Shown: positions 27,282 to 32,368 of the stretch, in pieces | How the letters are laid out: the number at the start of each line of letters is the position of its first letter | How positions within the stretch are numbered: the stretch's first letter is position 1 | Assembly (NCBI GenBank): GCA_004322045.1 | Contig: SCRN01000039.1 | Location: forward strand, 1-54,088 | Reading direction: 5' to 3' | From: Paraburkholderia sp. | GTDB taxonomy: Bacteria > Pseudomonadota > Gammaproteobacteria > Burkholderiales > Burkholderiaceae | Length of the DNA stretch: 54,088 nt | Program-made: the position numbers and the translations under genes | The notes under the pieces: generated by a model | What the model saw: the letters and a program-made list of their open reading frames with translations, nothing else | Database searches by the model: none | What the model was told of the DNA's origin: nothing

Positions 27282-28529
27282 TCAGTAAGCAAAGTACGGC
27301 CCCGTGCCGGCGGGCGTCGCTTCCTGCTCGATAGCGGTGTAGACGTTGCGCCCATAGAAGAACGGTAAGCCCCAATCGAACACTTGAGAGCCGACGAACG
27401 CAGGCCCCGCGAAAAGCGGCATCGCCGCTGCGCCGCCCGACGCTTGCCAGATTTGCGCGGCGTTGCCCACGCTGAAATCGACCGTGCTTGCGACGCCGTT
27501 CGTGCCGACGTTGGTCGCGCTGAACTGCTCGGTCGTGCCGGGACAGTAATAGCTCTGATTGGGGCTCGCACAGGCAGGCATCTGGCTCGTGGCGAAGAAC
27601 AGACCTGTCGAGCCGCTATCGACGATGCTGCCCGAGTATGTCGTTCCGTTTTCGGTTGTCGTAAACACGCCGCGCGACGGATCCACCCCGATCACGTGTG
27701 CGCCGGCGCCGATGGTGTTATCGCTTTGCGTGCCGATGCCGAAGATCAACTGTCCCGCCACGCTCGTCGCGCTGCCGCTTGGCACGGCGGGGAGACTAAC
27801 GATGACGCCGTTGCCGTCCGCGCCGAAGTAGGGTACGGGGTTGGCGACCTGCCGCTCTTCTGCAACAGTGGTCGGCAGGCAACTCGTGCCCGAGCACGCG
27901 TAGTAGGTGCCCACGATCGCCTGGTTGGCGCACGCCGCGCCGCAGTCGTGCTTGAATACGCCGATTCCGAGAATGCCGTTGGCCGCGAGTGTGCTCGGCG
28001 TATTGCGCGCCGCGCCGGTGTTCGAGCAACTCGCCGGCACGGCCGCGTAATTGGCGTCGATTACTTGGATAGGCAGCGATGCGGCGCGCTCCCCGCCGAT
28101 CTGCACATCGGCGATGCGAACCGAGCCCCAGGTGTAGCCATCGAAAAACTGCATGCACTCGGCGAGTGGGCCGCCGCCGTCGCTGGTTTGTTGCGGCAGC
28201 GCGACCGACGTGGAGAGTTGCGAGGCGAACACGCGCAGGCCCCACGATCCCGTATCCACTAGCACGTGGTCGATCGTTTGACAACTCGCGCCGCCTGGCG
28301 TGCAGACGGTGACGCTGACGAACGGCATGTTGGGCACGCCTGCCACCCCATGGTCGACGGCGATCGCTGCGACGTTGGCGGCCAGCGCGGCCGTGGGGGC
28401 CGATGTTTGAGCGGAGGTATTGCTGACCGAATTGCCGCCGCCGGAACCGCCGCCGCAGGCCGCGGTGAGGCAGGTGATCAGCAACACCGCCGCGGTCTTC
28501 ATCGCTTTCGAGATCGAGAATCGCAACAT
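27282..28529 (-). CDS. DUF3443 lipoprotein with pepsin-like DTG/DSG motifs
   Basis: A 415-residue exported lipoprotein: signal MLRFSISKAMKTAAVLLITCLTAAC with the lipobox Cys at residue 25, then a Gly/Ser-rich linker. The body is rich in Cys and Gly. Two elements stand out: VLVDTGSWGLRV (Asp92-Thr-Gly) and, about residue 300, SIVDSGSTGLFF, the spacing and form of the paired catalytic Asp-Thr/Ser-Gly loops of bilobal aspartic proteases. DUF3443 itself has no assigned function. The gene follows the DUF2844 gene by 11 bases on the same strand and is surely cotranscribed. Alternative start at Met10 would still keep a signal peptide. Confidence 0.85.
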   Translation of the reverse strand: MLRFSISKAMKTAAVLLITCLTAACGGGSGGGNSVSNTSAQTSAPTAALAANVAAIAVDHGVAGVPNMPFVSVTVCTPGGASCQTIDHVLVDTGSWGLRVFASQLSTSVALPQQTSDGGGPLAECMQFFDGYTWGSVRIADVQIGGERAASLPIQVIDANYAAVPASCSNTGAARNTPSTLAANGILGIGVFKHDCGAACANQAIVGTYYACSGTSCLPTTVAEERQVANPVPYFGADGNGVIVSLPAVPSGSATSVAGQLIFGIGTQSDNTIGAGAHVIGVDPSRGVFTTTENGTTYSGSIVDSGSTGLFFATSQMPACASPNQSYYCPGTTEQFSATNVGTNGVASTVDFSVGNAAQIWQASGGAAAMPLFAGPAFVGSQVFDWGLPFFYGRNVYTAIEQEATPAGTGPYFAY

Positions 28530-28540
28530 CGTCGGCACGC

Positions 28541-29002
28541 CTAACGAACTGCGGTGGCGTCGACGCCGGCCGGGAGTGCTTGGGGCAAATACGCGTGCCC
28601 CGAGAATGCGCGCAGATGTCCGCTGGAATAGACAACGAGATCGCTTGCCGACACGGCGAGCGGCCCGGCGCCGCGCGAGGGATTCGCATGCGTGAAGCGG
28701 TCGAACGCAGGGCCGAGCGCGGCTTTCAAATCGGGGAGGGTCGGGCCGTCCCATGCAACGCCGAAGACGATGCCGTCGGCCCCGGCATATTCGCGCACGA
28801 CCGTGCCGGAGGGCAGGGTGATCGTGTGAAGCGTGTAGGCGGCATGCACGCTGCTTGCGTGGGCAATGGCTGAGAGGCGCGTTGCGTCGGCCGCGACGCT
28901 ATCGGTGCGCTGGCCGAGTGTGGCCTGCGCGGCCGGTGCGGCGATGAATCCGGCCGCGGCGAGCGCCACGGCGATGGCGCTCGTACAGAAAGGCGATTTC
29001 AC
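28541..29002 (-). CDS. DUF2844 exported protein
   Basis: A 153-residue protein starting at GTG 29002, supported by AGGA seven bases upstream; signal peptide VKSPFCTSAIAVALAAAGFIAAPAAQA. The DUF2844 pattern is clear: ATLGQRTDSVAADATRL near the N-terminus, YTLHTITLPSGTVVREYAGADGIVFGVAWDGPTLPDLKAALG, then DLVVYSSGHLRAFSGHAYLPQALPAGV. Function unknown. DUF2844 and DUF3443 genes are regular neighbours in Burkholderia relatives, suggesting a two-component exported system. Confidence 0.88.
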   Translation of the reverse strand: MKSPFCTSAIAVALAAAGFIAAPAAQATLGQRTDSVAADATRLSAIAHASSVHAAYTLHTITLPSGTVVREYAGADGIVFGVAWDGPTLPDLKAALGPAFDRFTHANPSRGAGPLAVSASDLVVYSSGHLRAFSGHAYLPQALPAGVDATAVR

Positions 29003-29512
29003 TGCATTTCCTTCACTGGTGATGCGACGAACGGCCGGCAATGGGCGTCAACCGGGTTCGTGCTGGCGCGCAACCGCGCAGCTTGCTTTCGTCTGCACGG
29101 CGCACGTTCTGTCTCGTAACCAGTGAGGTGAACGGACGCGCGACGCCGAACTTTAGGCCGAAGCGATGCCCGCGAGCGGTGAAACGGCTGTTCGAACGGG
29201 AGGGAAAGAGGGTTGGACCAGGGGGCGTGTGTTGGCCGGATCACGCGCGGCTATTGCCGATAAGGCGCACGACTGCAGTCGCGCTTTGCGGCGTTCGCAA
29301 GGGACGGATGAAGCGACGCTTTGCCGCGCGTTTGAAAAAATTTTTGCCTATGTGAGCAGAAACCCTTATTTTTAACCAAGCGCTGAACTTTTTCACCAAA
29401 CGCTCGTTTGATCGAGCAGCACGACATCCGTGACAACGCGAATCACCATACGAATGCTTCCGCGGCCCCGGGCCCGGCGGGTTGCGACGAGCACTGCGCA
29501 AAGGATGAAGCA
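29003..29512. other. Intergenic region without a recognised gene
   Basis: About 510 bases between the DUF2844 gene and the response regulator. The left half is GC-rich and shows no coding pattern. From about 29330 it becomes A/T-rich (runs of A and T), the likely promoter area of the response regulator; GCTCG-tttgat-CGAGC forms a small dyad at 29402-29417. Nothing else can be supported. Confidence 0.5.
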
Positions 29513-29956
29513 ATGAAGTCCGACTGGTACGGCGCACGAGTGACCGTCGCGAACGCAACGGAAGGACCCGGCGACGGGAGCACGGTTGCGCATCCCAAGC
29601 GCGTGCTCATTGCCGACGCCGATGACGCGGCGCGCCGCATGTTGGTCAATCTGGTCGAGAGCTTGGGCTATGACGCCGTCGAGGCGCACTCGGTTGCGCA
29701 AGCGCTCGAGATCGCCCGGCAGGCGCCGCCCGATGCCGCCTTGATCGACATCGGCGCGCCGATGCTGGAAGGCTTGCCCGCGGCACGGCGCATGCGTGAA
29801 TTGGCGGGGGCCTCGTCCTTGCTATTGATTGCGCTGACGGGCTGGGGGCAGCCGCAGTACCGCGACATGGCGTTGGCGGCAGGCTTCGACGTTCATCTCG
29901 TCAAGCCGGTCGGCGTGGACCAACTCGGATTTCTCCTATCGATGACCTTGGTGTGA
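29513..29956 (+). CDS. Single-domain response regulator (receiver only)
   Basis: A 147-residue protein with a ~27-residue disordered N-terminus and one CheY-like receiver. The acidic pocket is Asp35/Asp37/Asp38 (LIADADD), the phospho-acceptor is Asp79 (LIDIGAP), the switch Thr is 109 (ALTGWG) and the conserved Lys is 131 (LVKPV). No output domain follows. The start ATG 29513 has AAGGA at 7 bases. No histidine kinase is nearby, so the partner is unknown. A candidate small RNA is encoded 100 bases downstream on the same strand. Confidence 0.9.
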   Translation: MKSDWYGARVTVANATEGPGDGSTVAHPKRVLIADADDAARRMLVNLVESLGYDAVEAHSVAQALEIARQAPPDAALIDIGAPMLEGLPAARRMRELAGASSLLLIALTGWGQPQYRDMALAAGFDVHLVKPVGVDQLGFLLSMTLV

Positions 29957-29997: not shown

Positions 29998-30013
29998 TGC
30001 CCGCTAGCGGGCA
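29998..30013. promoter_or_regulatory. Perfect 16-bp palindrome before the sRNA promoter
   Basis: TGCCCGCTAGCGGGCA is a perfect palindrome ending 11 bases upstream of the -35 element at 30025, within a wider imperfect dyad (TTGTGCAATGG ... CCATcgtgTTGCAA). It may be the operator of the sRNA promoter, or a T-less end signal of the response-regulator transcript. Confidence 0.45.
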
Positions 30014-30024
30014 CAACCATCGTG

Positions 30025-30053
30025 TTGCAATGCATCAAACGGTTTGCTAGAGT
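30025..30053 (+). promoter_or_regulatory. Sigma-70 type promoter of the candidate sRNA
   Basis: TTGCAA (30025-30030), a 17-base spacer and TAGAGT (30048-30053), each matching four of six consensus positions. It is followed by about 70 bases ending at a strong terminator, with no open reading frame between, so it is well placed to drive a short RNA beginning near 30058-30060. Confidence 0.5.
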
Positions 30054-30057
30054 GAAG

Positions 30058-30122
30058 TTGTCTCCTCCATGTCTCCTCTGATATGGATTCAGCCCGCCGA
30101 TAATTAGGCGGGCTTTTTTTTT
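30058..30122 (+). ncRNA. Candidate small regulatory RNA with repeated anti-Shine-Dalgarno motifs
   Basis: The ~65-base transcript predicted between the promoter and terminator starts with two direct copies of GTCTCCTC (30060-30067 and 30071-30078, an 11-base period) in an unpaired, C/U-rich 5' region, followed by a stable GC hairpin and a U-tract. Exposed CUCCUC motifs are complementary to ribosome binding sites and are the seed type of several trans-acting, Hfq-dependent sRNAs. There is no ribosome binding site plus reading frame in it. I do not recognise a named family. The ends are inferred from the motif positions and could be off by a few bases. Confidence 0.5.
30091..30122 (+). terminator. 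Rho-independent terminator
   Basis: AGCCCGCC (30091-30098), an 8-base loop and GGCGGGCT (30107-30114), then an uninterrupted T run to 30122. The U-tract is only on the plus strand, so it serves the sRNA and/or the response-regulator transcript rather than ompW, which converges from the right. Confidence 0.92.
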
Positions 30123-30175: not shown

Positions 30176-31030
30176 TCAGAACTTATACGAAAGCGCCAGA
30201 TAGGTGATGATCGGATCGGCCGTCAATTGGGCCTGCGTCGTGCCCAGCAACGTGCCGTCGGCCGCTCGCACGTATACGGTCGAGCGCGACTTCAGCGGTA
30301 TATAGGTCACCGATGCGCTCACCCCCCAATGTTCCGTGAAGTCGTACGAGGCGCCTGCGTTGAACACGGGGGCCCAAGAGGGCGACGCCTTCGCCGAAAC
30401 GCTCGTGACGCCCGGTCGCGCCGCGCCCGCGGCTAGCACCGAACCCAGGTTGTTTTGCGTCGACGTGACGAAGTTCGGATTGAGCTCGAGATTGGTAAAG
30501 AAGTTGTACGAAATGCCGATGCCGACGTAGGGCCGAAAGCGCGCCGTCGCCGAATTGAAGTAATACTGGATCATCATCGCCGGGCTCCACTGGCGCACGC
30601 TCTTGACGATCGGCTCGTTGGCCGGGTCGTCGAGATTTTCGGTGCCGAGCGCGCCGGCGGGGCCGGGCGGGACGATCGAGCCGCGGCCTCTGATCTTGAA
30701 CGTCGGCGGCACGCCGGCGACAGTCGTGAGCGCGATGTGATCGGTCAGAAAGTGACTGAAGACGAGGCCGAGCGTATCCGCGTTGTTCGTCGACAGCCCC
30801 GTTCCCTGCGAGGTGAATGCGCTTGGCAGCCGCAGTGGCGTATCGATGGGCTGCGGTGAAACATAGGTCGTCATCGGCGTGCTCGAGTCTTGCGGCATGA
30901 TGTGAAACCATCCGAGCGTGACGACGTTGTCGCCGGCCTTCTGCGCATAGGCGCTGCTGGCCAAGGTACCAAGCAGCGCGACGCTAGCGGCGGCGCGCGC
31001 AAACTTGCCCAACTTGTTTTTCGTCTTCAT
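30176..31030 (-). CDS. OmpW-family outer-membrane beta-barrel protein
   Basis: A 284-residue protein with signal peptide MKTKNKLGKFARAAASVALLGTLASSAYA. The mature part forms an eight-stranded OmpW-type barrel: GDNVVTLGWFHIMPQDSS at the N-terminus, LVFSHFLTDHIALTTVAGVPPTFKIRGRG, QYYFNSATARFRPYVGIGISYNFF, and the terminal strand ending in aromatic Phe (ITYLALSYKF). OmpW proteins pass small hydrophobic compounds. A strong SD (GGAGGAAACG) precedes the start. It follows the DUF2957 gene by 102 bases on the same strand and may be cotranscribed. Confidence 0.92.
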   Translation of the reverse strand: MKTKNKLGKFARAAASVALLGTLASSAYAQKAGDNVVTLGWFHIMPQDSSTPMTTYVSPQPIDTPLRLPSAFTSQGTGLSTNNADTLGLVFSHFLTDHIALTTVAGVPPTFKIRGRGSIVPPGPAGALGTENLDDPANEPIVKSVRQWSPAMMIQYYFNSATARFRPYVGIGISYNFFTNLELNPNFVTSTQNNLGSVLAAGAARPGVTSVSAKASPSWAPVFNAGASYDFTEHWGVSASVTYIPLKSRSTVYVRAADGTLLGTTQAQLTADPIITYLALSYKF

Positions 31031-31132
31031 CGTTTCCTCCCTGTCTTCGTTTTTTTTCGATCGCGCGCCGCCCCTCGCCCGCGAACGGGCCGGCCGGCGC
31101 ATGCGTCGACTTCGTGCTGCGCCGCGTTTGCG

Positions 31133-32368
31133 CTATTGAACGAACGCGTTGATCGTGAAGTACGGCGACGAATTCTCGTTGTAGAGATAGCCGAACACAC
31201 CGCCCGTGAAGATGAGCTTGCCCGTGGCCGCGCTCGATGACGAACCCGTCACGGCCGATAGCACGACGCCAGGCACGGCATTGGCAAAGCTCAGATCGAG
31301 TGGCGTGGCGACCGATGCGTTGGCCGCCTGGTACGGATCGAGCATCGTGGCTTGCGTGCCCACGAGCGCGGTGGCGCGATAGGCGAACTGGCTATCGACG
31401 CCGATGTATTGCCCGTTCTGCGTATTGACGGCGATGGGCGTTTGCGGTGCGAGGATGGTGATGCCCGATTCGTCGTCGGCGGTGAACGTCGAGGGATTGG
31501 CGTATCCGGTCCGAATCAGGATCGGCACGAGTTGATTGCGCAACTTGCCGACGATCATGAATCCCTTGCCCGCCGGCGAGACCGCGTTCGTGGGCTTGGC
31601 TTGGCTTTGAAACGCGTCGCTTTCGAACGCGCCGCTGCCATCGCTCGACTGCACCCAGTTCGTGCCCGCTTGCTGCGTCTTCCCCGCGTTCACGCCCACG
31701 TTGTCGGTTTCGCTCCACGTACCGTCTGCGTTGATGACGATCTTCGCGTCAACGGGCACCGTCGCATAGTTCTGCGAGGGAATGATGTGGTAGCCGAGCT
31801 GGTTGTAGGTGCCGGCTACGTTCGCCAGATTCGTCTCGATCGACGAAAAGCCGATGTACGGGAAGTAGGGGAACTTGTTGTCGGCCACGGCGCCGAAACC
31901 GACGATCCCGCTGTACTGAATTTCCTTGCCGGGGATCGTGCCGCCGAGCACCCCTTGCCCGACGAAGATGCGAGCCGGCTTGTTCGGATCCAAGCTCGCG
32001 CCCTGCAGGTAGAACGCGCATTCGTTCTGCTTTTGCGTCGGCAACAACGTCTCGGGCGCGAGCGTGCCGCTTTGCGATGTTCCCGCGCGAGACGGCGACA
32101 CCGTCCCCGTCGTGGCCGGAATCGCCGATTCGACATAGGTCACTTGCCACGTCATCTTCGTGGTGTCGATCTGCATCTTCACGAGTTCGCCGTCGCCGCC
32201 GCCGCCGGTGAACACCGTGTTGTAGTCGAGCGATGCGGGGCAGAGCCGGTCGGCCGCGGCATTCGCGCCACCAGGGACGGCGCTGCTGCCGCCACCACCG
32301 CCGCCACCACCACATGCGGCCAGAAAGGGCGCGACGAGCGCCAGTATCGAAAGGGTGTTCCGTTTCAT
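31133..32368 (-). CDS. DUF2957 lipoprotein
   Basis: A 411-residue protein with the signal peptide MKRNTLSILALVAPFLAACGGGGGGGG (lipobox LAAC, Cys at residue 19, followed by a poly-Gly tether). The remainder is beta-rich with repeated GxxG segments and fits DUF2957, a family largely confined to Burkholderia relatives, without known function. Start ATG 32368 is preceded by a strong GGAGG. Its C-terminus ends TGKLIFTGGVFGYLYNENSSPYFTINAFVQ. Operonic with ompW by position and orientation. Confidence 0.85.
   Translation of the reverse strand: MKRNTLSILALVAPFLAACGGGGGGGGSSAVPGGANAAADRLCPASLDYNTVFTGGGGDGELVKMQIDTTKMTWQVTYVESAIPATTGTVSPSRAGTSQSGTLAPETLLPTQKQNECAFYLQGASLDPNKPARIFVGQGVLGGTIPGKEIQYSGIVGFGAVADNKFPYFPYIGFSSIETNLANVAGTYNQLGYHIIPSQNYATVPVDAKIVINADGTWSETDNVGVNAGKTQQAGTNWVQSSDGSGAFESDAFQSQAKPTNAVSPAGKGFMIVGKLRNQLVPILIRTGYANPSTFTADDESGITILAPQTPIAVNTQNGQYIGVDSQFAYRATALVGTQATMLDPYQAANASVATPLDLSFANAVPGVVLSAVTGSSSSAATGKLIFTGGVFGYLYNENSSPYFTINAFVQ

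Follow-up and report, generated by a model that had tools for sequence, protein, structure and literature searches.

What kind of RNA is encoded at positions 30025–30122 of the window (the whole 54,088-nucleotide stretch of Paraburkholderia sp. DNA analysed here, contig SCRN01000039.1 of assembly GCA_004322045.1), and what controls its production? A preliminary description, made from the sequence, proposed a small RNA (sRNA) with two seeds complementary to ribosome-binding sites. The RNA is an additional member of an already described family, Rfam RF02278, and its promoter appears to contain a PhaR-type operator, a new prediction with strong motif support. Published systems are cited below from excerpts of the papers concerned.

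Identity and parts of the RNA

The preliminary description recognised no named family and proposed an Rfam/Infernal search. That search overturns the former statement: cmscan matches the RNA to RF02278 (Betaproteobacteria_toxic_sRNA) with 77.9 bits against a gathering score of 50, and the match (30059–30121) spans model positions 1–64 of 64. Because Rfam already names RF02278, the idea of a new RNA family was rejected, as were three other identities: MmgR (RF00519; 17.0 bits against a gathering score of 41), NmsRb (RF02877; 26.2 bits against 52) and anti-hemB (below the Rfam cut-off). NmsRb of Neisseria resembles the window RNA in having two UCUCCU-type motifs in its consensus.

Besides the covariance score, the RNA has the other traits of RF02278, i.e., two hairpins of which the second is the terminator, and CU-rich seeds, whose pairing with targets is predicted. 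The predicted fold of positions 30059–30122 comprises two hairpins and has a free energy of −28.8 kcal/mol (z = −5.65); none of 200 shuffles was as stable. The strong terminator noticed at the outset has its stem at 30091–30114 and nine T at 30114–30122. The two copies of GTCTCCTC, with starts 11 bases apart, are likewise as first described, and they are the only occurrences on the + strand of the whole 54-kb window, whose − strand has none. Judging from relatives, the 5' start of the sRNA probably lies near 30059–30060. The promoter-like hexamer pair can be read in the sequence (Table 1) and is kept in relatives. It agrees with 8 of 12 consensus positions, and a strict promoter scan, which needs nine, reported no promoter at 30025–30122.

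The own genome (G000) has three RF02278 copies above the cut-off, as does each of the 11 Trinickia genomes searched, own included. Within the family Burkholderiaceae, 133 of the 150 genomes searched have RF02278 above the cut-off; a class-wide draw with stricter filters gave 2 of 185 genomes, own included. Copies of the window type, with CTC-TGAT after seed 2, are called type A.

Table 1. Positions of the sRNA gene, its predicted control elements and the flanking genes in the window
Feature	Position	Strand	Basis
Upstream gene: stand-alone response regulator receiver domain (context only)	29516..29956	+	PF00072
Putative PhaR/PhbF-type operator, overlapping the −35 hexamer	30020..30040	+	phasin matrix 18.6; S. 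meliloti PhaR consensus
−35 hexamer TTGCAA	30025..30030	+	sequence; kept in relatives
−10 hexamer TAGAGT, spacer 17	30048..30053	+	sequence; TA-rich −10 kept in type A and B upstream regions
Small RNA gene, RF02278 (double-hairpin/toxic sRNA), start predicted	30059..30122	+	cmscan 77.9 bits
Seed 1, GTCTCCTC, then CAT; mostly in the unpaired 5' tail	30060..30067	+	fold, sequence count
Hairpin 1, stem 30066–30073 with 30080–30087	30066..30087	+	fold; Rfam structure line
Seed 2, GTCTCCTC; UCCUC in the loop of hairpin 1	30071..30078	+	fold, sequence count
Hairpin 2, intrinsic terminator with nine T	30091..30122	+	sequence, terminator scan, fold
Convergent downstream gene: OmpW-family outer membrane protein (context only)	30176..31102	−	PF03922

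Published relatives

In Burkholderia cenocepacia, dRNA-seq found four homologues, named double-hairpin RNAs (ncS03, ncS05, ncS27 and ncS62; PMC5688073). The window RNA shares with them the full model length, two hairpins, two CU-rich seeds and the presence of several copies per genome; it differs in the putative PhaR-type operator, which the excerpts of their literature do not name. qPCR shows higher levels of ncS03, ncS05 and ncS27 in biofilm, in starvation and in glucose medium, the rise in the last being 8.0-fold, 6.9-fold and 4.3-fold, respectively (PMC5688073). According to a review, ncS27 affects genes for phenylalanine and tyrosine catabolism and for carbohydrate transport (PMC10987360). 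The 2017 authors reported a common upstream motif in three of the four homologues and stated that the regulator of sRNA accumulation was unknown (PMC5688073).

S17 of Bordetella pertussis has conserved seeds placed as in the window RNA, with Site 1 in the 5' end and Site 2 in the first loop, and pairing of Site 1 with a target was shown by compensatory mutations (PMC11722255). Unlike the window RNA, S17 has a 190-nt form that is cut to 67 nt and is higher in Bvg+ mode (PMC11722255). The terms PhaR, PHB and polyhydroxy are absent from the excerpted text of that paper.

An sRNA acting on several mRNAs through two seeds, as first proposed, is thus borne out by RF02278 membership and by published relatives, which are expressed and reported to act in this way. 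We consider this mode of action well founded because both the 5'-seed pairing of S17 and the effects of ncS27 are in print. The preliminary description did not, however, notice the putative PhaR-type operator over the −35 hexamer.

A putative PhaR-type operator in the promoter

When sRNA upstream regions are compared side by side, many of those listed have TTGC-N3-GCA-YCA over the −35 element. In the window this corresponds to an operator-like 16-mer, TGTTGCAATGCATCAA, at 30023–30038 with the core TGCAATGCA at 30026–30034 (both on the + strand). For PhbF (PhaR) of Herbaspirillum seropedicae, a repressor that binds granules of the stored bioplastic PHB, the motif TG[N]TGC[N]3GCAA lies within a footprinted region (PMC3206438). 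The window site resembles this operator, with GCATCAA where the PhbF motif has GCAA; the PhbF targets given in the excerpts of that paper are PHB genes and include no sRNA.

Because of the resemblance between the PhbF motif and the sRNA element, phasin promoters were taken as an outside standard. We used 30 phasin loci of this genome and of others in the family, drawn from the 58 of 80 genomes that have phasins; the phasin start was located in 29 (L232 gave none). Every one of these 29 promoters has a TGC-N3-GCA box within 300 bases, and 27 have two or more, giving 59 boxes in total against 4 for reversed-triplet controls. A 19-position matrix was then built from phasin promoters only, using 41 distinct sites (56 before merging). 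On this matrix the window site scores 18.6, and the maximum among 1750 shuffled upstream regions is 15.8. Leave-one-out scores of the phasin sites have a median of 26.7 and a 10th percentile of 21.5. The window box therefore looks real, yet weaker than about 90% of phasin boxes.

A second motif definition comes from Sinorhizobium meliloti, whose PhaR consensus was derived from proteomics with EMSA support (PMC12542648). This consensus is alphaproteobacterial; the window site fits it with no core mismatch and two arm mismatches, and all 29 phasin promoters match it.

The own genome has what a PhaR regulon would need, i.e., the predicted operator sequence and a gene for the repressor. Its phaR (TIGR01848, 163.3 bits against a cut-off of 109.45; also PF07879) adjoins an acetoacetyl-CoA reductase family gene. 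A pattern derived from the boxes gave 14 matches in this genome against 3 for a reversed control. Besides the sRNA, these include two phasin boxes (three matches) and a site at a PHA depolymerase gene; the others are in or near other genes. The depolymerase-gene site, TTGTGCATTGCATCAA (L289:1501–1516), is of PhaR type, lies about 50 bases before an in-frame ATG of a short-chain-type gene (NF050058, 272.5 bits against a cut-off of 150) and has the right half GCATCAA in common with the window site. Among the three sRNA copies of the genome, the window copy alone has a strong box: one of the others has a weak box (10.4), and the best site of the third (L003) scores 8.4, at −87.

Recurrence upstream of related sRNAs

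The phasin matrix was applied to 175 distinct sRNA upstream regions, which remained after 4 loci with short upstream sequence had been dropped and identical regions among the other 194 merged. This set is weighted to at least 119 stretches fetched with a pattern that contained both seeds, so it says nothing on seed conservation, and Rfam-based sets spread over genera were therefore added (next section). The counts given here also cover related sequences and not independent trials.

A score of at least 15 is reached by 52 of the 175 regions (29.7%, among the matches listed), compared with 0.13% of 6173 other 150-base windows of the named loci. In terms of shuffles, 93 regions exceed the 99% level and 52 the 99.9% level (among the matches listed). 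Recurrence depends on type: again among the matches listed, scores of at least 15 occur in 42/58 type A, 10/90 type B, 0/18 type C and 0/9 other regions, and scores of at least 10 in 57/58, 55/90, 0/18 and 0/9, respectively. The best type A site begins at −39 or −40 in 57/58 (among the matches listed). One type A copy, from T. soli (L007), scores 9.9, which counts against the PhaR reading. When no mismatch is allowed in the core and at most two in the arms, the S. meliloti PhaR consensus is found in 140/175 sRNA regions (among the matches listed) against 157/5388 background windows; by type the counts are A 51/58, B 80/90, C 9/18 and other 0/9, also among the matches listed.

Two further upstream sequences were observed. 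Many type B copies (e.g., L066 and L086) have a conserved GGGTTTTCCCTTAAAAA just upstream of the box, beginning about 20 bases before TTGC, and several Paraburkholderia type A copies have GGGTCAACCCTAA in the corresponding place.

Spread over genera and presence of PhaR

For the scoring across genera we used 43 genomes (of 52 considered) from 20 genera, with known PhaR status, and RF02278 copies above the cut-off only. It covered 92 of the 93 listed copies (L003 was not located), and Trinickia contributed 14 copies from five genomes. Scores of 15.4 and 11.1 are reached by 28 and 39 of the 92 copies, respectively, leaving 64 below 15.4; background windows in the same loci reach them in 0/895 and 2/895 cases. 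A copy of at least 15.4 occurs in 25 of the 40 PhaR-bearing genomes and in 11 of the 20 genera, and one of at least 11.1 in 30 of the 40. In three genomes (G198, G267 and G276) the best score comes from a site more than 100 bases upstream; with sites restricted to 100 bases, 15.4 is reached in 23/40 PhaR-bearing genomes, and the number of genera stays at 11. Boxes are found on copies of types A and B and on some of the long form (type C), and one genome from another family of the order also has a box (L032, 15.2).

None of the PhaR-less genomes, of which there are only three, has a copy of at least 11.1. The S. meliloti consensus behaves similarly, with 52/88 copies in PhaR-bearing genomes against 0/4 in PhaR-less ones. 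In genus g198 the three PhaR-bearing genomes scored reach 21.0, 24.6 and 18.5 and the PhaR-less one 0.1. In genus g192, by contrast, the box is missing from two PhaR-bearing genomes and from the PhaR-less one alike, and in genera g195, g196 and g199 PhaR is present but no box reaches 11.1. Overall, 10 of the 40 PhaR-bearing genomes are without any box of at least 11.1, which counts against the PhaR reading.

These exceptions bear on the strongest alternative, in which the locus encodes an ordinary RF02278 sRNA and TTGC-N3-GCA is a −35 element plus the site of a regulator other than PhaR. The box is missing or weak in many copies, PhaR binding is a prediction, and many type B promoters share a second conserved upstream element, around GGGTTTTCCC. 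TTGC also belongs to the −35 hexamer, which gives half of the site a separate reason to be conserved. However, the distal GCA lies outside the hexamer and is kept at 62–96% in types A and B: in TTGC-aligned regions its G, C and A are conserved at 88, 88 and 62% in type A (n = 56) and at 96, 93 and 81% in type B (n = 85), with the upstream columns of type A mostly near 30–55% (all among the matches listed). The −35 hexamer alone is therefore no explanation. Two motif definitions, one from phasin promoters and one from an alphaproteobacterium, both fit, and the box is found in 0/3 PhaR-less genomes. We consider this alternative unlikely, though it deserves to be taken seriously, and PhaR control of the window sRNA probable on the strength of the motif.

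A proposed storage-linked brake on carbon intake

The circuit we propose is as follows. When there is little PHB, PhaR would occupy the operator over the −35 element of the sigma-70-type promoter, where the box would hinder RNA polymerase, and the sRNA would be kept low. As PHB granules form, PhaR would be titrated off the DNA (in Cupriavidus necator it is described as moving from DNA to nascent PHB granules; PMC9049629) and the sRNA derepressed. Its two CU-rich seeds, in the 5' tail and the first loop, would then cover the ribosome-binding sites of transport and catabolic mRNAs, thus slowing carbon uptake and catabolism. This explanation as a whole, an RF02278 sRNA with a PhaR operator over its −35 element that is derepressed by PHB and uses its seeds to brake carbon intake, we judge to be quite probable. 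For the own organism, we infer PhaR binding, PHB control and Hfq dependence.

With a PhaR operator these sRNAs would have a sensor and, in PHB, a signal, and their rise in glucose medium would be explained. One published result may count against the PhaR reading here: ncS27 is a longer, processed form, yet it also rises in glucose (PMC5688073).

The nearest parallel is MmgR of S. meliloti, a PHB-linked sRNA under PhaR repression, whose promoter is shifted in EMSA (PMC12542648). MmgR (RF00519) is a different RNA from the window sRNA and is reported to act on phasin genes. We think it reasonably likely that RF02278 sRNAs are direct PhaR targets across the Burkholderiaceae and their neighbours, forming an RNA arm of the PHB storage regulon that brakes uptake and is independent of the PhaR–MmgR pair. 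If so, one storage sensor has come to control two unrelated sRNAs, independently in each case; the sRNA would be a signal that stores are filling, delivered by masking ribosome sites, and carbon storage would be joined to the translational control of carbon intake. The reach could be wide, given the 133 family genomes with double-hairpin RNAs. Within the literature covered, no paper joins PhaR with RF02278 or NcS27; Sass 2019 (on ncS27) and figure S3 of Sass 2017 lie outside that scope and may describe the motif.

PhaR could also act on the element within a toxin-like or growth-arrest programme instead of carbon-storage feedback. Cloned family members are inhibitory to E. coli (Kimelman 2012, via PMC4603805 and PMC5688073), which is why these RNAs were named toxic, and ncS27 overexpression attenuates growth (PMC5688073). 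However, S17 overexpression is reported not to be similarly toxic in E. coli, and the reported targets include many transport and catabolism genes, so we give a growth-arrest role very little weight beside the storage-linked brake.

Genomic neighbourhood

The gene order at the locus (+ gene, + sRNA, − gene) is that printed for ncS03 and ncS62 of B. cenocepacia. A response regulator lies beside all 11 Trinickia type A copies examined, own included, and near no Trinickia copy of type B or C. An OmpW gene lies beside 10/11 Trinickia type A loci, own included, and 32/48 type A loci outside Trinickia; some loci end before the full neighbourhood, which bears on all of these neighbour-gene counts.

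Least credible of all is the view that the locus has no RNA of its own and marks the end of read-through transcription from the response-regulator gene, or a terminator that arose by chance: the response-regulator gene does lie upstream on the same strand and the strict promoter scan finds nothing, but the RF02278 match is full-length, no Trinickia type B or C copy has a response regulator nearby, and the promoter and start are conserved in relatives.

Several other features were observed around the gene. A perfect palindrome, GCCCGCTAGCGGGC, lies at 29999–30012, beyond the response regulator and ahead of the sRNA promoter, with no T-run after it. Further out, a DUF3443 gene adjoins a DUF2844 gene (27282–29041), and a DUF2957 gene (31133–32368) adjoins the OmpW gene and is found beside 9/11 Trinickia type A loci.

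Variant and weak RF02278 matches

The class-wide draw also gave weak RF02278 matches below the cut-off (loci L033–L060). Of the 29 class-wide loci L032–L060, 16 contain CTCCTCCATCCTCCTTTGGTGG, together with a GC-rich terminator and, in several, a TATTAGAAAATACTTACATACTGATT-like stretch upstream. When 11 of the weak loci were run through Rfam, no sRNA name was returned; a tRNA gene lies about 1 kb from 8 of these 11. In other Gammaproteobacteria (the GTDB class) such loci may represent a sister family of sRNAs that is not yet listed. Two loci of genus g179 (L319 and L382) carry a short RF02278 variant in which the second seed is replaced by CACCACCTCGG, together with a strong box (24.3).
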